Below are positions 17,144 through 39,557 of a DNA stretch of 64,000 nucleotides, piece by piece. The translations under genes were made by a program, and so were the position numbers. The DNA lies in the NCBI RefSeq assembly GCF_024172095.1, contig NZ_JAMZDX010000002.1:434001-498000 (forward strand), written 5' to 3'. Every line of letters starts with the position of its first letter. Position 1 is the first letter of the stretch. Below the pieces are notes generated by a model. That model saw only the letters and a list, made by a program, of their open reading frames with translations. It was not told the origin of the DNA and did no database searches. This stretch comes from Kitasatospora cinereorecta (GTDB lineage Bacteria > Actinomycetota > Actinomycetes > Streptomycetales > Streptomycetaceae).

Positions 17144-19942
17144 TCAGTCCGCCTGGCGCGTGGCGAACGCCTCCAATCCCTTGAGGCTCAGCCGCCGGTA
17201 GTGGTCGAGCCCGTGCTGCTGCGCGAGTTCGAGAGTCTCCAGGAAGTAGCGCCGTGCCACCTCGGGATCGCCGTGTTCGAGATGCGTCCGGGCGATCGTC
17301 TCGAGCGTGTCGGCGACGTTCCCGTGGCTGTGCTGCGCCCGCCGGATCTCGAGCGCCTCGGCGAGCACGTCCAGAGCCTCCTGCGGACGGCCCAGGCCGC
17401 GCAGCGTGTCGCCCAGATTGCTCAGCGCCGTCGACAACTTCTCCCGCGAACCGGCTGCCCGCCAGCCCGCCACCGCGGCCTGAAACGTCCGCTCGGCACC
17501 CTCCAGGTCGCCGGACTCGAACAGCACGCCCCCGGCCGTCAGCAGATCACCCGGTCGGCTCGTCGACGTCGAGAGCTCCAGGGCCTGCTCCAGGTACGCC
17601 TGTGCCTGGTCGAGCTCCCCGGCCTGCTGGCTCGCCGCAGCGAGGTTCGACAGCACCACGCGCTGGCCCTCGGTGTCGTCGACAGCCCGGAACAGCTCGA
17701 GGGCGGTCCGCAGGTGGTCGAGACTGCGCTCGTTGCGCTGGACCAGGCCGTTCGCCACCCCCAGACGGCCGTGCAGCCACGCCTGGCCTTCGCGGTCGCC
17801 GGCTGCGCGCGTCGCGGCGAGCGCCTCCTCCAGGCACTCCAGCCACACGCCGTTCCACCAGTAGGTCAGGCCGTAGCCGAATAGCGCCGCCGCGGCCCGC
17901 CAGGCGACGTCCGGACGGTCCAGCGCGACGGCGAGGCGGACGGCCGACCGGATCGCGGGCAGCTCGTCGACACACCACTCCAGTGCCGCCACCTCGTCCG
18001 CGAACTCGGGCAGCTCGGGGTCGGCCGGGTCCGCGGCGGCACCAGCCCCGGCGAGCGGCGGAATCGGCCGGGCCTGCGGCGCGATGGTCCGGTTGGCCTT
18101 GGTGACCGCCGCTGCGTACCAGCACACCAGCCGCAACTGGGCCGACCGCCGGGCCTCCTCGGACTCGTCCTCCCGGGCCCGCTCCGCCGCGAACTCGCCG
18201 AGCAGGTCGTGGAAGCGGTAGCGCCCCGACGCTGCCTGATCCAGCAGGTGGGAGTCGATCAGCGCGTCCAGGACGTCCAGCGCGTCGTCCACCGGCGCGC
18301 CCATCAGGGCGGCCGCGGACTCCGCCGAGTGGTGGTGCGGCCACAGGCCCAGCAGCCGGAACGCCCGCGCCGCCTCCCGCTCCACCGGCCGGTCGCCCGC
18401 CAGCAGCGAGCTGTACGAGAACGAGAACGCCTCCCGGACCGCGAGGTGGTCCACCGCGAGCGCCTTCAGCCGGTCCGCCCGGCCGAGCCGGCGGGCCAGC
18501 TCGTCCAGCCGCCAGGACGGCCGGTGTGCCAGCCGGCTGCCGGCGATCCGCAGGGCCAGCGGCAGGCCGGCGCAGGCCGCCATGATCTTCCCGGCGGCCA
18601 CCGGATCGGCCGCCACCCGGTCCTCGCCGCACATCGCCGCCAGCAGGCGGCGCTGCTCCTCCTCGGCCAGCGGACCCAGCGGGATCCGGGTCGAGCACTG
18701 CACCCCCGGCAGCTTGTGACGGCTGGTCACCACCACCGCGGAGCGCCCCGTCCCGGGCAGCAGCGGGGCGACCTGGCGGCTGTCCCCGGCGTTGTCCAGC
18801 ACCACCAGCACCCGCCGCTCGGCGAGCAGTGACCGGTAGAGCGCCGCCCGGTCGTCCACGTGCTCGGGCAGGGTCTCGCCCGCAACACCCAGATCGGTCA
18901 GGAAGCGGCCCAGCAGGTCGTGCGGCGTCCGGGCCGCGGACAGTCCGAAGCCGTGCAGGTCGGCGTAGAGCTGGCCGTCCGGGTAGTCCTCCCGCACGGC
19001 CCGGGCGCCGTGCACCACCAGCGTGGTCTTGCCGACACCGCCCATACCGGTGACCAGCACCACCCGGGCCGGCGCGTCCCGGTCGCCGGGGCGCAGGTAC
19101 AGCGCCAGCGCGTCCAGCTCGCCCTGCCGGCCGGTGAAGTCGCCCGGCGCGGTCGGCAGCTGGGCCGGCACCGGGACGGCGGCCACCGCATCGTCCGGCT
19201 CCTCCTGCGGGAGCGGCCCGTCCGCGGCCAGCACCTCCTGGTGGGCCCGCTGGACGGCGGCCCCCGGCTCCACGCCCAGCTCCTCCACCAGGGTGGTGCG
19301 CAGCTCCTGGTACACCGCGAGGGCGTCGGCCCGGCGGCCGGTGCGGTGCAGGACCAGCATCAGCTGGCGGTGGAAGGACTCCCGCAGCGGATGGTCGGCC
19401 GTCAGCCGGGCGAGTTCGGCGCTCAGCCCGTGGTGGCGGCCGAGCTCCAGCTCGGCGTCGAACCGCCACTCCAGCGCCTCCAGGTGAAGCTCCACCAGGT
19501 GGTCGAGCCCGGTCTCCGACCCGGCCGGCGGGCCGCCCCGCCAGAGGGCGAGCGCCGCCGTCACCTGCTCCGCGACGCGGGGCCAGTCCCGCTCGCCGTG
19601 CGCCGACCGGGCCGTACGCAGGTGCGTGGTGAACACGGCGCTGTCCAGCTCGCCGTCCTCGACCCGCAGGACGTACCCGGACGCGGTGGACCGCAGCCGG
19701 TCCTCCAGGAGCGGGCCGAGGCTCCGGCGCAGCCGGCCGATGTGGTTGTGCAGCGATGCCTGCGCGGTCCGCGGCGGCCGCTCGCCCCATACCGCCGCCA
19801 CCAGCGCTTCGGCGGTGACCGGGCGGTTGGGGTCGAGCAGAAGGTGCGTCAGCAGCGCCCGGTGGGTGGGACTGGTGATCGGACGCGGCTCGCGACCGTC
19901 GTGGACGGTCAGCGGGCCGAGCAGGCCGAACGCGATGGCCAT
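17144..19942 (-). CDS. SARP/AfsR-family transcriptional regulator (BTAD, NB-ARC, TPR)
   Basis: A 932-residue regulator built like AfsR. An OmpR-type winged helix occupies about residues 1-95 (HRALLTHLLLDPNRPVTAEA, TAQASLHNHIGRLRRSLG). A bacterial transcriptional activation domain spans about 98-243. An NB-ARC STAND ATPase follows with Walker A GMGGVGKTT (299-307), Walker B VLVVLDNA (378-385) and the downstream GLPLALRIAGSRLA motif. TPR repeats fill about 690-930. SARPs bind direct repeats upstream of antibiotic or developmental genes. No biosynthetic cluster is in view, so this may act as a global regulator. The start is ATG at 19942. A 357-bp upstream gap holds a G-quadruplex motif. Confidence 0.92.
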   Translation of the reverse strand: MAIAFGLLGPLTVHDGREPRPITSPTHRALLTHLLLDPNRPVTAEALVAAVWGERPPRTAQASLHNHIGRLRRSLGPLLEDRLRSTASGYVLRVEDGELDSAVFTTHLRTARSAHGERDWPRVAEQVTAALALWRGGPPAGSETGLDHLVELHLEALEWRFDAELELGRHHGLSAELARLTADHPLRESFHRQLMLVLHRTGRRADALAVYQELRTTLVEELGVEPGAAVQRAHQEVLAADGPLPQEEPDDAVAAVPVPAQLPTAPGDFTGRQGELDALALYLRPGDRDAPARVVLVTGMGGVGKTTLVVHGARAVREDYPDGQLYADLHGFGLSAARTPHDLLGRFLTDLGVAGETLPEHVDDRAALYRSLLAERRVLVVLDNAGDSRQVAPLLPGTGRSAVVVTSRHKLPGVQCSTRIPLGPLAEEEQRRLLAAMCGEDRVAADPVAAGKIMAACAGLPLALRIAGSRLAHRPSWRLDELARRLGRADRLKALAVDHLAVREAFSFSYSSLLAGDRPVEREAARAFRLLGLWPHHHSAESAAALMGAPVDDALDVLDALIDSHLLDQAASGRYRFHDLLGEFAAERAREDESEEARRSAQLRLVCWYAAAVTKANRTIAPQARPIPPLAGAGAAADPADPELPEFADEVAALEWCVDELPAIRSAVRLAVALDRPDVAWRAAAALFGYGLTYWWNGVWLECLEEALAATRAAGDREGQAWLHGRLGVANGLVQRNERSLDHLRTALELFRAVDDTEGQRVVLSNLAAASQQAGELDQAQAYLEQALELSTSTSRPGDLLTAGGVLFESGDLEGAERTFQAAVAGWRAAGSREKLSTALSNLGDTLRGLGRPQEALDVLAEALEIRRAQHSHGNVADTLETIARTHLEHGDPEVARRYFLETLELAQQHGLDHYRRLSLKGLEAFATRQAD

Positions 19943-20199: not shown

Positions 20200-20240
20200 T
20201 GAGAGCGGGTCGGGACCGAATCGGTCCCGACCCGCTCTCA
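20200..20240. terminator. 41-base near-perfect hairpin, terminator of the serine hydrolase gene
   Basis: Arms 20200-20219 and 20221-20240 are perfectly complementary (20 bp, starting TGAGAGCGGG) around a single A. The effective loop is AAT. It lies 60 bp past the stop of the leftward serine hydrolase gene. No T-run follows. Confidence 0.8.
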
Positions 20241-20299: not shown

Positions 20300-21442
20300 T
20301 CACAGCGCGCAGAACGCGTCGACGGTGGCCTTGCCGGTGTCCTGCTGGCCCTTCGTCCCGGCCATCAGGTGGAACTCGTTGTTGGCGCGCACCACCTGCT
20401 TGCTGCCGTCCTCGCTGGTGAGCCAGTCGCTGTAGTAGCCGAGGACGGCGCCGTTGTGGTTCCAGGCCCACTGCCCGCACGGCAGCTGCACGTGGATGAT
20501 GCCCAGGCCGTACCCGACGGTGCCGTCGGCCGTCACCGGGACGGTGGTCTTCAGCTCGGCCTCCTGCGCCGGTGCCAGGAGCTTCCCGGTCACCAGCGCC
20601 CGGGAGAACGCGGCCAGGTCGTCCACGGTGGACACCATCGCCCCGGCGGGCCCGAAGGTCTGCACGTCGGACACGGTGACGTCGCGGATCACGATCCCGA
20701 CCACCGGGTACTCGTAGCCGTGCAGGTACGTGCCGTGCAGCGCCGGGTCGGCGGTGGGGAAGGTGGTGTCGTGCAGGCCGAGCGGTTCGACGATCCGCTG
20801 CCGGATCTCGGTGGCCGCGTCGTTGCCGGTGACCGCCTTGATCACCATGCCGGCCAGCACGTAGTTGGTGTTGGCGTAGCTCCACTTCGTCCCCGGCGCG
20901 GCGGACGGCTTCTGCTGGGCGAGCGCCAGGTCCACCAGGGTCTGCGGCGGCCAGGGCCGGTTGGGCTGGGTGTTCAGCGCGTAGGTGAGCGCGAAGCCGG
21001 CGTCCTTGGCGTACTCGGGCAGGCCGGAGGTGTGGTTGAGCAGCTGACGGATGGTGATCTTCGTGCCGTCGTAGCCGTTGGCGGCGACCGCGCCCGGCAG
21101 CCAGTGGTCCACGGTGTCGTCCAGCGACAGTCGGTGCTCGCCCTCCAGCTGGAGCAGCACGGTGGCCGTGAACGCCTTGGTGTTGCTGCCGATCCGGAAC
21201 TGCGCCCGGGGATCCGCCGCGACCCGGGTGGCCAGGTCGCCCACCCCCGCGTGGACGTACTGCGCCTCGTCGCCCCGGCGGACCAGGCCGATCACCCCGG
21301 GGTAGCCGTCGGCCACCCCCTGCTGCGCACCGGCCTGCAGCAGACCGGCCGCGGTCGGCGTGTCGGCGTGCGCCGGGCCGATCCCGGCCAGGGCGGCGAG
21401 CACCAGCGCGGCGCCGGCCGCGGTCAGACGTATGGACTTCAT
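20300..21442 (-). CDS. secreted serine hydrolase, beta-lactamase class C / D-Ala-D-Ala carboxypeptidase fold
   Basis: A 380-residue exported protein. Signal peptide at about residues 1-26 (RLTAAGAALVLAALAG, then PAHA). The penicillin-binding fold shows all three catalytic motifs: SxxK in RIGSNTKAFTA, YxN in KWSYANTNYVLAG and HxG in WNHNGAVLGYYS. Relatives are D,D-carboxypeptidases, esterases or beta-lactam-binding proteins, and sequence alone does not decide. The ATG at 21442 follows GGAGGA. The promoter region carries a 20-bp inverted repeat at 21537-21556 that recurs before the XRE-NACHT gene, suggesting that regulator controls this hydrolase. Confidence 0.9.
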   Translation of the reverse strand: MKSIRLTAAGAALVLAALAGIGPAHADTPTAAGLLQAGAQQGVADGYPGVIGLVRRGDEAQYVHAGVGDLATRVAADPRAQFRIGSNTKAFTATVLLQLEGEHRLSLDDTVDHWLPGAVAANGYDGTKITIRQLLNHTSGLPEYAKDAGFALTYALNTQPNRPWPPQTLVDLALAQQKPSAAPGTKWSYANTNYVLAGMVIKAVTGNDAATEIRQRIVEPLGLHDTTFPTADPALHGTYLHGYEYPVVGIVIRDVTVSDVQTFGPAGAMVSTVDDLAAFSRALVTGKLLAPAQEAELKTTVPVTADGTVGYGLGIIHVQLPCGQWAWNHNGAVLGYYSDWLTSEDGSKQVVRANNEFHLMAGTKGQQDTGKATVDAFCAL

Positions 21443-21536
21443 CGGATTCCTCCATCGACGGGTGGTCATCCCACGCCACGGGTTGGTGGCTGCTCCGATG
21501 CTGGTCCGGACCGGCTGTGGTGGACAGGTCAAGCCA

Positions 21537-21556
21537 CCGGCCAGATATGGCCGACC
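21537..21556. promoter_or_regulatory. inverted repeat shared with the XRE-NACHT promoter (copy 2)
   Basis: ACCGGCCA (21537-21544), GATA, then TGGCCGAC (21549-21556; wobble only in the last two bases). It matches the perfect copy at 24062-24081 in 14 of 16 arm positions. It lies 95 bp before the serine hydrolase start, just upstream of a TTGACC that could be its -35. Confidence 0.65.
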
Positions 21557-21557
21557 G

Positions 21558-24011
21558 TCAGGACGTCCCGCTCGGGTCCGCGGTCGGGGCCCCGGTGCGG
21601 GCGTCGGTGGAGGGGAAGCGGGCCGGTGCGTAGCCGGCCCGGCGCCGGCGGAAGGTGTGGGCGAGGTGGTGCTGCAACCGCAGGTGCCGGAACTGGTACA
21701 CCGCCCCCGTCCGGCGCAGCACCCCGCGCCGGTAGGCGTCGTCCAGGAAGGCCTCCGGATCCCAGGGCAGCCGGCCGGTCAACGGCAGCCACACCCGGGA
21801 CAGCACCAGCCACTGCCCCCAGGCGGTGAAGGCGAGGGCGTACGCGAGCCCGCCGCCCAGCCCGGCGACCGTACCGATGACCAGCGCGTCCGAGAGCCGC
21901 CAGTTCAGCGGTCCGAGCCAGCCCTGCAGCGCGTCGACGACCAGGCGCCCGCCGAAGGCGATCACGAGGGTGAACGCCGGTGCCAGCACCAGGACCTGGC
22001 GGACCACCGCCCTGCGATTGGTGGCCAGCAGATCGGCCGGAGTCGCCGCCGACGCCACGTCGACGGGCGCCTCCAGCGCGGCCACCAGCCCGAACACCAG
22101 CCCGGCGGCCAGGCCGAAGATCAGCCCGAAGCACAGCATGTTGATCAGGGTGGCCTCGATCACCGCCGGATCGGTGATCGGGATCCCCGGATAGAGCGCG
22201 CGCTCCAACGTGAGGGCGCAGGCGCAGCCGACGCCCATCACCGAGCCGCCGAGCAGCCCGTCCACGAACCGGCGGCCGAAGGTCCGCACCGACCGGCGAC
22301 CGCCACCCCGGCGGCCCGGCAGCCGCAGGCGGACCCGGGTCGGTTCGAGGGCCCTCCCGCTGCCGACCGCGAGCATCGCCGCGTACACGGACCCGAAGGC
22401 GACCCCGGCCACCGGGCCCATCAGACTGCCCTGCAGCAGGGCTTCGCCGATCCCGCCGGCGGTGACCAGCGGATACACCAGCCAGTTCGGCAGGGCGACG
22501 GCGAGCGCGGTCGCCACCACCACGGCCAGGACCCGGGTCGAGCGCCGCACCGTGTCGCCGAGCTGCCACCAGCCGAGGTCCTGCTGGTCGCGGTCGAGCC
22601 GGACCAGGTGCTGGGCGAGGTGCCCGAGCCAGTACTCGGCGCGCTCGGGGTCCCATTTTCGCCGGCGCGGGCCGGGGGCGTCCGGCTCCGGGACGGCGGG
22701 CCGGTAGACCGCGGGCAGGAACCCCGCCAGCAGGTGCTCCTCCAGCGCCCGTACGGTCGGGAAGCGTGCGGTGTCGAGCAGCTCGGCCGGGTCCCGGTCC
22801 GGTGCGTCGCTGTACATCGTGCGGGCCAGGCTCACCATCAGCGGGGTGGTCAGCGCCGCCGCGAGGTTCGCCCCGCCCGGGGTCCGCGGGTCGCGCAGCG
22901 CGTCCAGGACCCCGTCCCACACCGAACCGCCGCCCGGCTCGCCGTCGGGGGCGGTCGTCCGGTCGGTCCGCGGCAGGTAGGAGCCCAGGTCGTCGAGGGT
23001 CAGATCGGTCAGCTCGATGCCGGCCGCCCACGCCGGCGGCGCGTGCGCCGCCCGGACCGCCTCGGCGAACTCCTCGCGCCGACTGGTCAGCACCAGCGGC
23101 ATCGTGGACGCGTTCAGCGCCTCCAGGGCCTCGCGCCGCAGCCCCTCCGCGATCTCGTCGAACCCGTCCAGCACCGGCAGGATCAGGTCGGCGTCCACCA
23201 GTGCGGCGGCCAGCGAGCCGCGACCGGGGCCCCGTCGGGCCAGATGCGGGTGGTCGCGCAGCAGGCGGGCGATCAGCCAGTCGCGCAGTGCGACGGTCTT
23301 CGGGTCCCACGGACCGAGGCCGCACACGACCGGCACCCGGCCACCGACCGCGGCCGGCGCCTCCAGCAGGTCCAGCACCAGCCTGATCGTCAGCACCGAC
23401 TTGCCGGATCCCGCCCGGCCGAGCACCACCAGCCGGCCGGACGAGACCCGCCGGTAGACCTCCGCCACACTCCGCAGATCACCGCTCAGGTCCAGCTGCC
23501 GCGGCACCCCGCCCGGCCCGAGCCGCTGGACGTTCTCCGCACGGTCCGTCAGCTCCGCGGGCGCCGGCCGCCACCGGACCGGCAGCGGGAACGGATGGGC
23601 GATCCGTCGCTGCGCCTCCTCGTCCCGCCACCGGCGCCGCACCTCGGTCGCCAACTCCAGTGCGGCGTCGGCGAGCGCGGGGTGCACCGGCGGTGCGGCG
23701 GGGGCCCGAGGGGCAGCCGCGGGCGGGGGAGCGGACGGCTCCGCGGGCACCCCGGCCCCGGCGTCGGTCCTGCCCACTTCCGCGGTCTCGGTCCCGGCGA
23801 GGACGTCCGAGAGCTGTTTCCGGTCGTCGGGGCCGATCTCCAGGGCGTCCGCGAGCAGGTTCACCGTGCCCATCCGGTGGTCGGTCGACCTGCCGGTCTC
23901 CAACCGCCGGATGGTGCGGACGCTCACCCCCGACCGCTCCGCGACCTGCTCCTGCGTCAGCCCCGCCCGATTGCGCAGCCCGCGTAACAACGTGCCGAGC
24001 TGATCCGTCAC
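21558..24011 (-). CDS. XRE helix-turn-helix - NACHT NTPase - polytopic membrane protein
   Basis: An 817-residue three-part protein. Residues 1-60 are an XRE-type helix-turn-helix (LRNRAGLTQEQVAERSGVSV, then RTIRRLETG). After a Pro/Ala linker (about 82-110), a NACHT STAND ATPase occupies about 190-430: Walker A GRAGSGKS (198-205), Walker B VLDGFDE (280-286) and sensor-like LTSRREE (309-315). Residues 490-740 hold roughly eight to ten hydrophobic helices in pairs (for example VLAVVVATALAVALPNWLVY, LINMLCFGLIFGLAAGLVFG). The end is a YQFRHLRLQHHLA motif (772-784), common at the C-terminus of actinobacterial NACHT proteins. It could sense a signal at the membrane and control transcription, or act as an immune-type NLR. 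The start is GTG at 24011. Confidence 0.85.
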   Translation of the reverse strand: MTDQLGTLLRGLRNRAGLTQEQVAERSGVSVRTIRRLETGRSTDHRMGTVNLLADALEIGPDDRKQLSDVLAGTETAEVGRTDAGAGVPAEPSAPPPAAAPRAPAAPPVHPALADAALELATEVRRRWRDEEAQRRIAHPFPLPVRWRPAPAELTDRAENVQRLGPGGVPRQLDLSGDLRSVAEVYRRVSSGRLVVLGRAGSGKSVLTIRLVLDLLEAPAAVGGRVPVVCGLGPWDPKTVALRDWLIARLLRDHPHLARRGPGRGSLAAALVDADLILPVLDGFDEIAEGLRREALEALNASTMPLVLTSRREEFAEAVRAAHAPPAWAAGIELTDLTLDDLGSYLPRTDRTTAPDGEPGGGSVWDGVLDALRDPRTPGGANLAAALTTPLMVSLARTMYSDAPDRDPAELLDTARFPTVRALEEHLLAGFLPAVYRPAVPEPDAPGPRRRKWDPERAEYWLGHLAQHLVRLDRDQQDLGWWQLGDTVRRSTRVLAVVVATALAVALPNWLVYPLVTAGGIGEALLQGSLMGPVAGVAFGSVYAAMLAVGSGRALEPTRVRLRLPGRRGGGRRSVRTFGRRFVDGLLGGSVMGVGCACALTLERALYPGIPITDPAVIEATLINMLCFGLIFGLAAGLVFGLVAALEAPVDVASAATPADLLATNRRAVVRQVLVLAPAFTLVIAFGGRLVVDALQGWLGPLNWRLSDALVIGTVAGLGGGLAYALAFTAWGQWLVLSRVWLPLTGRLPWDPEAFLDDAYRRGVLRRTGAVYQFRHLRLQHHLAHTFRRRRAGYAPARFPSTDARTGAPTADPSGTS

Positions 24012-24061
24012 TTGGCGCCCCTCTTCTCGCCGCCGCGGCCGTTCGTGAGCCTACCGTGACG

Positions 24062-24081
24062 ACCGGCCACAGTTGGCCGGT
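24062..24081. promoter_or_regulatory. perfect inverted repeat between XRE-NACHT and zinc-ribbon genes (copy 1)
   Basis: ACCGGCCA (24062-24069) and TGGCCGGT (24074-24081) form a perfect 8-bp dyad around CAGT. It is 51 bp before the leftward XRE-NACHT start and 96 bp before the rightward zinc-ribbon gene. It overlaps the probable -35 of the NACHT promoter (a TAGGCT -10 lies nearer the gene), which suits autorepression. Confidence 0.7.
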
Positions 24082-24176
24082 GCCCTGGCCTGTCCGGCGC
24101 AGCGGCGCGACCTCCACGATCGCTGCCCGGGCTCGCACGGCCCGCACCATCCGGCCCACCGACCCGAGGAGTCCCC

Positions 24177-24404
24177 ATGGCCCACCGCTACTGGTGCGGC
24201 GAGTGCAGCCACCGCACCCCCTGGCTCACCGAGTCCGAGGCCGCACAGCGGCAGATCGAGCACTACGCGGCCGAGCATCCCGGCATCCCGCCCGGCGGCC
24301 ACGTCGAGGTCGACCGGGGCGGCCCCGACCGCGGCTTCGGCTGCCTCCAGCTGCTCGGGATCGCGATCCTGCTGCTGGTCCTCGCGGCGGCCTGCCGCCG
24401 CTGA
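24177..24404 (+). CDS. small zinc-ribbon-like membrane protein, conserved hypothetical
   Basis: A 75-residue protein. The N-terminus has a CxxC (YWCGECSHRTPW) and the sequence then reads AQRQIEHYAAEHPGIPPGG. It ends in a single membrane helix (about 55-72, LQLLGIAILLLVLAAA) with one cysteine. A half zinc-ribbon with the helix suggests a tail-anchored protein. I recall similar short proteins across Streptomyces without assigned function. The ATG at 24177 follows CGAGGAG. It is divergent from the XRE-NACHT gene and shares its inverted-repeat region, so the two may be co-regulated. Confidence 0.75.
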   Translation: MAHRYWCGECSHRTPWLTESEAAQRQIEHYAAEHPGIPPGGHVEVDRGGPDRGFGCLQLLGIAILLLVLAAACRR

Positions 24405-24424
24405 CCGGCGCCGGGTGCCCGCGC

Positions 24425-24954: not shown

Positions 24955-25042
24955 TGGTGTCCGAGGGGGGACTTGAACCCCCACGCCCGATAAAGGGCAC
25001 TAGCACCTCAAGCTAGCGCGTCTGCCATTCCGCCACCCGGAC
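24955..25042 (-). tRNA. tRNA-Leu (anticodon GAG)
   Basis: Read on the minus strand, an 88-base cloverleaf begins GTCCGGGTGGCGGAATGGCA at 25042. The anticodon loop TTGAGGT sits between CTAGC and GCTAG. A long class II variable arm (TGCCC...GGGCG) follows, then a T-arm with GTTCAAGTC, and an acceptor ending CTCGGAC-A. CCA is encoded at 24955-24957. The long variable arm and GAG anticodon identify leucine. Confidence 0.97.
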
Positions 25043-26549: not shown

Positions 26550-26783
26550 GACGGTCTGCCCGGTCGGTCTGCCCGGCCGGCCGCATTGTCGGAGGGGATG
26601 ATTTGGGACAGCGGAAACCCGGGTCGGAGGAACGCTTCTGCCGGTAATTCCAGGTCGAGTGAATGTGCGAGCCATCACCGTTGAGAGTGAATGCGTGATC
26701 GCTGCCGTACCCCGTTCGCGGTGCCCTCGTTCACCCATTTGCAGTCCGGGGGAACGGGCTGCGCCATCGACCAGGAGGAACAC

Positions 26784-27026
26784 ATGAAGGCCAAGAAGAT
26801 CGCTGCCGTTGTCGCTGCCACCGGTGGCCTGGTGCTGGCCGGCGCGGGTGCCGCGGCCGCTCACGGCGGGGCTTCCGCCGAGGGTGTGGCCGCCGGCTCC
26901 CCGGGCGTGCTGTCGGGCAACCTGATTCAGATCCCGGTGAACGTGCCGGTCAACGTCTGCGGCAACACGATCAGCGTGATCGGCCTGCTCAACCCGGCGT
27001 TCGGCAACCACTGCATGAACGGCTGA
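26784..27026 (+). CDS. short chaplin
   Basis: An 80-residue secreted surface protein. The signal peptide is about residues 1-27 (AAVVAATGGLVLAGAGAAAA). One chaplin domain of about 50 residues follows: SPGVLSGNLIQIPVNVPVNV, then CGNTISVIGLLNPAFGNHC with its two conserved cysteines. Chaplins assemble into amyloid-like fibres that make aerial hyphae hydrophobic. The ATG at 26784 follows AGGAGG. A CGTTGA at 26679-26684 resembles the -10 I recall for BldN-dependent chaplin promoters, but no matching -35 was found. A strong hairpin terminator follows. Confidence 0.95.
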   Translation: MKAKKIAAVVAATGGLVLAGAGAAAAHGGASAEGVAAGSPGVLSGNLIQIPVNVPVNVCGNTISVIGLLNPAFGNHCMNG

Positions 27027-27060
27027 GCGGATCCCGTCCGCTGGTGACGGTCACGTCACT

Positions 27061-27106
27061 CACGCGCCCCCGCGCGGTGGTTTCTGCCACCGCCTGGGGG
27101 CGCGTG
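27061..27106. terminator. terminator after the short chaplin gene
   Basis: An outer 11-bp stem, CACGCGCCCCC (27061-27071) with its complement at 27096-27106, encloses an inner seven-base stem GCGGTGG/CCACCGC with a TTTCTG loop. It lies 35 bp past the chaplin stop. Confidence 0.85.
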
Positions 27107-27283
27107 CCGTTCCGGCGCGACCACTCGTTCGGGTCGGCGTCGACCTGGGTTTCCGGCGTGTCACTCGATCTGATGAACGGACTGCATCCGGCCGATCCAA
27201 TTGGCGAGTCGGTCGTTGTCTGTTGTACCGGCGAGGGTCTCGTCAGGAATTCCGACAATCAGAAGAAGAAGTCAGGGGAGTCC

Positions 27284-28078
27284 ATGCGACAGGTCGCAAA
27301 GAAGGGCCTTCTCACGGCCATGGCCACCGGCAGCGTTCTGGCCTCCACGGCCGGCTACGCGTACGCCGCGGGCAGCGACGCCCACGGTACGGCCGCCAAC
27401 TCGCCCGGCGTCGGCTCGGGCAACTCGGTGCAGGCCCCGGTGGACCTCCCCGTGAACGCCTGCGGCAACACCATCAACGTGATCGGCCTGCTCAACCCGG
27501 CGTACGGCAACGACTGCTCCAACCAGTCCGGGGGCGGCCACGGCGGCGGCACCCACGCGGGCTCCGGCTCGTCCGCGAGCGGTTCCAGCACCAACTCGCC
27601 CGGCGTCGTCTCCGGCAACCACGTGCAGGCCCCGATCAGCGCCCCGGTCGACGCCTGCGGCAACTCGGTCAACGTGGTCGGCATCGGCAACCCGGCCTTC
27701 GGCAACGACTGCGGCAACCACGGGTCCACCACCGCCCACCCGCCGACCACGCCGCCCCCGTCGCACGGCGACGACTGCCCGCCGGACCACCACACCCCGC
27801 CGCCCACCGGTGACCACACCCCGCCGCCCACCAGCGTCCCGGAGACCCCGTCCACCGGCACCGACCGCACCGGCGGCGGGACCCCGACCACCGTGACGCC
27901 GGTCTCCTCCACCGGGACGGGGAGCAGCACCCAGACCGTCGAGGCCGCGGCGCCCGTCCGCGACCAGCTCGCCTCCACCGGCGCTTCCGGGCTGGAGCTG
28001 CTCGCCCCGACCGGTGCGCTGCTGCTCATCGGCGGCGGCGTGCTCTACCGCCGCTCGCGGGTGAACGCCGGCCGCTGA
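27284..28078 (+). CDS. long chaplin with LAXTG cell-wall sorting signal
   Basis: A 264-residue long chaplin. A signal peptide (about 1-28, ending AYAA) precedes two chaplin domains at about 35-80 and 100-150, each with a cysteine pair (NACGNTINVIGLLNPAYGNDC-type). A Pro/Thr/His-rich wall-spanning linker follows (about 150-230). The sortase signal is LASTG near 229-233, then a hydrophobic helix and RRSRVNAGR. A class E sortase should link it to peptidoglycan, where it anchors short chaplins. The ATG at 27284 follows AGGGGAG. The short and long genes are adjacent, as in the chpC/chpH arrangement. Confidence 0.95.
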   Translation: MRQVAKKGLLTAMATGSVLASTAGYAYAAGSDAHGTAANSPGVGSGNSVQAPVDLPVNACGNTINVIGLLNPAYGNDCSNQSGGGHGGGTHAGSGSSASGSSTNSPGVVSGNHVQAPISAPVDACGNSVNVVGIGNPAFGNDCGNHGSTTAHPPTTPPPSHGDDCPPDHHTPPPTGDHTPPPTSVPETPSTGTDRTGGGTPTTVTPVSSTGTGSSTQTVEAAAPVRDQLASTGASGLELLAPTGALLLIGGGVLYRRSRVNAGR

Positions 28079-39481: not shown

Positions 39482-39557
39482 AGGGGCGCGAGGAACTGCG
39501 CGACCGGCCATGCACTCACGTAGAGCGGTGGCCGGCGGCGCAGTTCCTCGCGCCCCT
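39482..39557. repeat. 76-base palindromic Streptomyces-type intergenic repeat / bidirectional terminator
   Basis: The outer 20-bp arms (39482-39501, AGGGGCGCGAGGAACTGCGC, and 39538-39557) are perfectly complementary. An inner seven-base stem CCGGCCA/TGGCCGG (39504-39510, 39529-39535) sits inside. The GGGGCGCG-GGAACTGCGC sequence is one I recall as dispersed many times in Streptomyces genomes between genes. Here it lies between the convergent mshC and PAC2 genes and should terminate both. Confidence 0.8.

Follow-up and report, generated by a model that had tools for sequence, protein, structure and literature searches.

Candidate operators of a predicted membrane-bound XRE-NACHT protein in Kitasatospora cinereorecta and other actinobacteria

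Results

The XRE-NACHT locus

In the present study, a stretch of 64,000 nucleotides from Kitasatospora cinereorecta (contig NZ_JAMZDX010000002.1, positions 434,001 to 498,000), herein called the window, was analyzed around a gene whose product carries an XRE DNA-binding domain, a NACHT NTPase domain and predicted membrane helices. The following features are found at this locus (positions are those of the window).

20300 to 21442, minus strand: serine hydrolase, secreted, belonging to the beta-lactamase / DD-peptidase family (PF00144, E 2.3e-58) and a predicted target
21498 to 21503, minus strand: CAGCAT, the -10 box predicted for the serine hydrolase gene, 32 nt beyond the dyad
21524 to 21531, plus strand: ACAGGTCA, the third half-site, flanking the dyad toward the hydrolase gene
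21536 to 21555, plus strand: candidate operator dyad ACCGGCCA-N4-TGGCCGAC, 2 bp past the NACHT stop codon and ahead of the serine hydrolase gene
21558 to 24011, minus strand: XRE-NACHT gene, 817 aa, with XRE helix-turn-helix (residues 4-67), NACHT NTPase (about 194-296) and about six predicted membrane helices (494-728)
23811 to 24002, minus strand: XRE helix-turn-helix domain (Pfam HTH_31, E 1.1e-15), presumed operator-binding part
24048 to 24053, minus strand: TAGGCT, the -10 box predicted for the XRE-NACHT promoter, 8 nt beyond the dyad
24062 to 24081, minus strand: candidate operator dyad ACCGGCCA-N4-TGGCCGGT, in the divergent promoter of the XRE-NACHT and zinc-ribbon genes
24086 to 24093, minus strand: ACAGGCCA, the third half-site, flanking the dyad toward the zinc-ribbon gene
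24115 to 24120, plus strand: CACGAT, the -10 box predicted for the zinc-ribbon gene, 33 nt beyond the dyad
24178 to 24405, plus strand: small zinc-ribbon protein that ends in a hydrophobic tail, also a predicted target

The XRE domain was recognized by both HTH_31 and HTH_3 (E 5e-10), each over its curated Pfam cut-off, and its recognition helix is nearly invariant among homologues. The protein is also a member of the NACHT clade of STAND NTPases, with a Walker A motif (GRAGSGKS) and a Walker B motif (DGFDE) that are kept throughout the family and a NACHT domain whose Pfam match is weak (E 0.0012, 19.1 bits, under the 26.7-bit cut-off). The best PDB fold matches of an AlphaFold2 model (mean pLDDT 83.9) were NOD2, NLRP2 and other NLR proteins (E 5.6e-05 to 2.2e-04), with low TM-scores, and this support therefore extends to the NTPase core only. 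Residues about 490-728 hold six hydrophobic segments and, in the model, six long predicted helices, and 5 to 7 hydrophobic segments were observed in 34 of 36 homologues; the charges of the inter-helix loops weakly support a defined topology. Pfam revealed no effector domain, and the PADLOC match was confined to the HTH part. Concerning the flanking genes, the serine hydrolase has a hydrophobic signal-like segment, and the zinc-ribbon protein, which has no Pfam match, belongs to a family with 20 members among the loci examined.

The dyad ACCGGCCACAGTTGGCCGGT lies at 24062-24081, where the preliminary description had placed it; the second dyad, ACCGGCCAGATATGGCCGAC, is likewise present, at 21536-21555 rather than at 21537-21556, one base from its earlier position. 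No further copy had been reported there; indeed, the window holds none at 0 or 1 mismatch, and no other site in the window reached 14 bits with the family matrix. Kinship with the repeat at 39504 was rejected, the arms of that repeat being separated by an 18-nt gap. In the 8.64-Mb genome, the exact pattern ACCGGCCAN4TGGCCGRY occurs at two places only, which are the two window dyads. This strict pattern showed no genome-wide enrichment at up to 2 mismatches (99/108 versus 145/153 in the reversed control). The family form ACCGGYCAN4TGRCCGGT was found, at up to 1 mismatch, at 14 places compared with 3 for the reversed control.

Each dyad is part of an element of approximately 32 bp, ACAGGYCA-N4-ACCGGYCA-N4-TGRCCGGT, in which a third half-site, ACAGGYCA, stands 4 bp outside the dyad with equal spacing at both window dyads. 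In other words, the site is longer than the dyad first noticed and is directional, and the downstream element of the window is inverted relative to the upstream element.

Conservation at homologous loci

A total of 79 homologous loci of 14 kb, chosen by their NACHT gene, were compared, comprising 74 XRE-bearing and 5 XRE-less loci; the gene calls came from a simple composition rule, and some gene starts are therefore approximate. In several actinobacterial orders, a site is located approximately 70 bp ahead of the XRE-NACHT gene. By matrix scoring, this counterpart of the dyad at 24062-24081 was observed upstream of 62 of the 74 XRE-bearing homologues, a count that is partly circular because the matrix was built from those same upstream sites, and in none of the 5 XRE-less homologues or the loci of the reversed control. 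A strong upstream site was missing in the other 12 XRE-bearing homologues, and the XRE-less homologues carried no site anywhere within their 14-kb loci. The conservation before orthologues that the preliminary description had named as a test is borne out, in that a dyad-bearing site precedes most XRE-NACHT genes. By its domain and by the palindromic candidate operator at the promoter of its own gene, the protein is probably an XRE / Cro-CI regulator.

A second site, the counterpart of the dyad at 21536-21555, was observed at or just past the NACHT stop codon at 21 loci, the window included. It is inverted at all 21, with the third half-site facing the downstream gene, which encodes a PF00144 hydrolase (5 loci), a PF00756 esterase (7), a WXG100-like protein (6, from Amycolatopsis and relatives) or another protein (3). 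Where a hydrolase or esterase gene is divergent from the NACHT gene, usually the upstream site alone is found. The element holds one orientation toward its target, because the downstream copies are inverted and the divergent-hydrolase loci are mostly single-site. Two elements inverted around the XRE-NACHT gene might also be the ends of a mobile cassette that carries it; this reading is disfavored because loci without the second copy exist, and indeed the downstream copy is missing at many orthologous loci. Moreover, the copies stand at a fixed distance from the promoter boxes of the flanking genes and occur at unlinked genes as well, and we consider a mobile cassette exceedingly improbable.

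In two Streptacidiphilus loci (L098 and L054), additional operator-like sites were noticed ahead of small genes that look WXG100-like by eye.

Promoter geometry

The positions of promoter boxes relative to the dyad were scored over 100 sites, with transcription starts inferred from -10-like boxes. On the target side, a YANNAT box lies 32 or 33 nt past the dyad in 50 of the 100 sites (0.16 expected per offset), characteristically in the form CANNAT, and on the NACHT side a TANNNT box lies 8 or 9 nt past the dyad in 43. The target-side spacing recurs in whole-genome matches outside the set from which the matrix was built. On the NACHT side the dyad thereby extends over the -35 region of the promoter, and on the target side it sits upstream of the core promoter. 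All three window promoters fit this family geometry, in line with the earlier suggestion that the protein may control the NACHT, hydrolase and zinc-ribbon genes.

With arms of 8 bp, a loop of 4 nt and one copy just beyond the NACHT stop codon, the dyads could in principle form RNA hairpins, for example a terminator or a processing site after the NACHT gene. This explanation is disfavored because 41 of the 100 sites have no Watson-Crick pair at arm position 6/15, mostly with C facing A. The conserved third half-site and the -10 boxes also fall outside any hairpin, the upstream copy lies in a promoter ahead of a gene, and no T-run follows the dyad; RNA hairpins are accordingly very unlikely to account for the sites.

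Co-occurrence and unlinked sites

Pattern scans for the extended motif at up to 1 mismatch, performed without the matrix, covered 61 genomes; the presence of NACHT genes was judged from a DNA query, a search that may overlook divergent genes. The motif was found in 13 of the 61 genomes and the NACHT gene was detected in 18, among them all 13, that is, the motif was present in 13/18 genomes with the gene versus 0/43 without a detected one (Fisher 1.3e-9, ignoring shared ancestry). Among these 43 motif-free genomes, 22 are of the same genus, and five NACHT-bearing genomes lacked the extended motif at this threshold. Taken with the 14 and 3 places of the family form, these results put the motif above chance frequency, one of the points on which the preliminary description had staked its proposal. 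A chance origin of the dyads was rejected on the enrichment of the family form, the conservation before orthologues and the co-occurrence with the NACHT gene.

Of 30 whole-genome matches examined, 21 adjoin genes of the XRE-NACHT family. Several of the remaining matches precede genes for PknH_C-domain, WXG100-like or lectin-domain proteins, with the target -10 box at the same spacing, and a clear target was missing at some (e.g. L127 and L164). In one genome, a site-bearing hydrolase-esterase operon lies about 7 Mb from the sole detected NACHT gene. In the genome of the window, all four detected XRE-NACHT genes (three paralogues beyond that of the window) carry the site, and it is also found at two esterase genes and at protein kinase genes. 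Predicted sites of this genome include the contig positions C2:455524, 458063, 886919, 891320 and 1151468; C5:75945 and 76341; and C8:299496, 302377, 306206 and 394442.

These distributions bear on whether a different, unlinked transcription factor owns the dyads and XRE-NACHT is merely one of its targets. The link between the XRE domain and the site comes from sequence comparison, and hydrolase and PknH_C genes bear the site without a linked NACHT gene; both points speak for such a factor. However, such a factor would need to track XRE-NACHT across genomes, given that the extended motif is absent from the genomes without a detected NACHT gene, even those of the same genus, and that XRE-less homologues are site-free within their loci. 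In addition, XRE-NACHT is the sole DNA-binding gene at nearly all site-bearing loci, in a set chosen by the XRE-NACHT gene. We therefore regard an unlinked factor as unlikely.

At one further locus (L129), two near-identical operator-like sites lie approximately 6.7 kb apart (4509 and 11219), one of them preceding a protein kinase gene, and their surroundings look duplicated.

Discussion

Herein, we propose that the XRE-NACHT protein, whose gene lies between the two dyads, uses both as operators and would control its own gene, the zinc-ribbon gene, the secreted hydrolase gene and unlinked envelope genes. The conserved site, its co-occurrence with XRE-NACHT, the fixed geometry and the unlinked targets, all observed by computation, are best explained in this way, and we assign this reading a probability of roughly 0.83. 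First, the protein would be anchored in the membrane by its approximately six C-terminal helices, placing the NACHT ATPase and the XRE domain in the cytoplasm. Second, it would bind the palindrome together with the third half-site, presumably through the XRE domain. Third, sensing at the membrane and a nucleotide-driven switch within the same protein may set the expression of these genes.

The geometry suggests a different sign of regulation on the two sides of the dyad. The protein may repress its own gene, given that positions of about -40 to -21 of the NACHT promoter fall within the dyad. Activation of the targets appears somewhat the better-founded expectation, since the dyad occupies about -64 to -45 of the target promoters and the third half-site about -40 to -33, with a weak -10 box and no recognizable -35 box. 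The protein might instead bind as proposed and repress all of its targets in the manner of the XRE repressors of phages and toxin-antitoxin systems, with release upon an envelope signal, a scenario identical to our explanation except for the direction in which the targets are regulated. A repressor role is established for many well-studied XRE proteins, and the overlap of the dyad with the -35 region of the NACHT promoter fits such a role; however, at the targets, the location of the dyad ahead of the core promoter, the third half-site at the -35 position, the weak CANNAT box and the rigid spacing of 32-33 nt look like activation. Repression of all targets is the less likely, though by no means remote, alternative.

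Beyond the operators themselves, we lean toward the reading that XRE-NACHT proteins constitute a bacterial NLR-like, membrane-embedded, one-protein switch, in which a NACHT ATPase would sense an envelope signal and read it out directly to the promoters of a dispersed envelope regulon, and in which the several paralogues of a genome would use a common operator code. This regulon would include serine hydrolases, PF00756 esterases, PknH_C proteins, WXG100-like proteins and protein kinases. Judged from the sites ahead of them, genes that encode secreted and cell-envelope proteins appear to be under the control of this family in many actinobacteria.

Several known systems share part of this architecture. 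The STAND-class regulators MalT and AfsR/SARP combine an ATP-dependent STAND switch with a DNA-binding domain and TPR-type sensor repeats. XRE-NACHT would likewise unite such a switch and a DNA-binding domain within a single protein, but its XRE domain is N-terminal, its NTPase is of the NACHT clade and approximately six membrane helices are predicted at its C-terminal end, without TPR-type repeats and the usual DNA-binding domains of those regulators. CadC and ToxR are membrane-bound one-component regulators with one membrane helix, a winged HTH and no NTPase; the resemblance to XRE-NACHT would lie in a cytoplasmic DNA-binding domain on a membrane protein, and they differ from it in lacking the XRE domain, the NACHT domain and the set of about six predicted helices. 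The NLR coactivators CIITA and NLRC5 have no DNA-binding HTH and are not membrane proteins, and the transcriptional role of an NLR-type protein is a functional parallel only. Bacterial NACHT proteins have been studied mainly as anti-phage executioners. One of these, bNACHT25, carries a PD-(D/E)XK nuclease effector (PMC12169576). XRE-NACHT has the same central NACHT NTPase, with NOD2 as the best structural match of its model, which would make it an NLR-like bacterial relative of the animal immune receptors. Unlike bNACHT25, it has an XRE domain and a conserved predicted operator and regulon, suggesting that its output is transcriptional. Streptomyces also has XRE regulator genes that come in pairs with one for a small DUF397 protein (PMC10364602); compared with those pairs, XRE-NACHT shares the XRE helix-turn-helix and has a NACHT domain and a predicted membrane portion in place of a DUF397 partner.

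No published description of the XRE-NACHT family was found in the mainly open-licence literature. In several actinobacterial orders, this family combines a NACHT ATPase with a DNA-binding domain, predicted membrane helices and a defined candidate operator, which makes it a tractable candidate for an NLR-type switch with a transcriptional output, and the operator with its promoter geometry offers a ready reporter for finding the signal.

Some further features lie around the locus. A perfect 20-bp inverted repeat with a 1-nt center (20200-20240), probably a terminator, separates the hydrolase gene from an AfsR/SARP-like STAND regulator gene (BTAD, NB-ARC, TPR; 17144-19942, minus strand), which lies just past the hydrolase gene and has no operator copy before it. 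A tRNA-Leu (gag) gene (24955-25042, minus strand) adjoins the XRE-NACHT locus, and two adjacent genes at 26691-28078 (plus strand) resemble chaplins.
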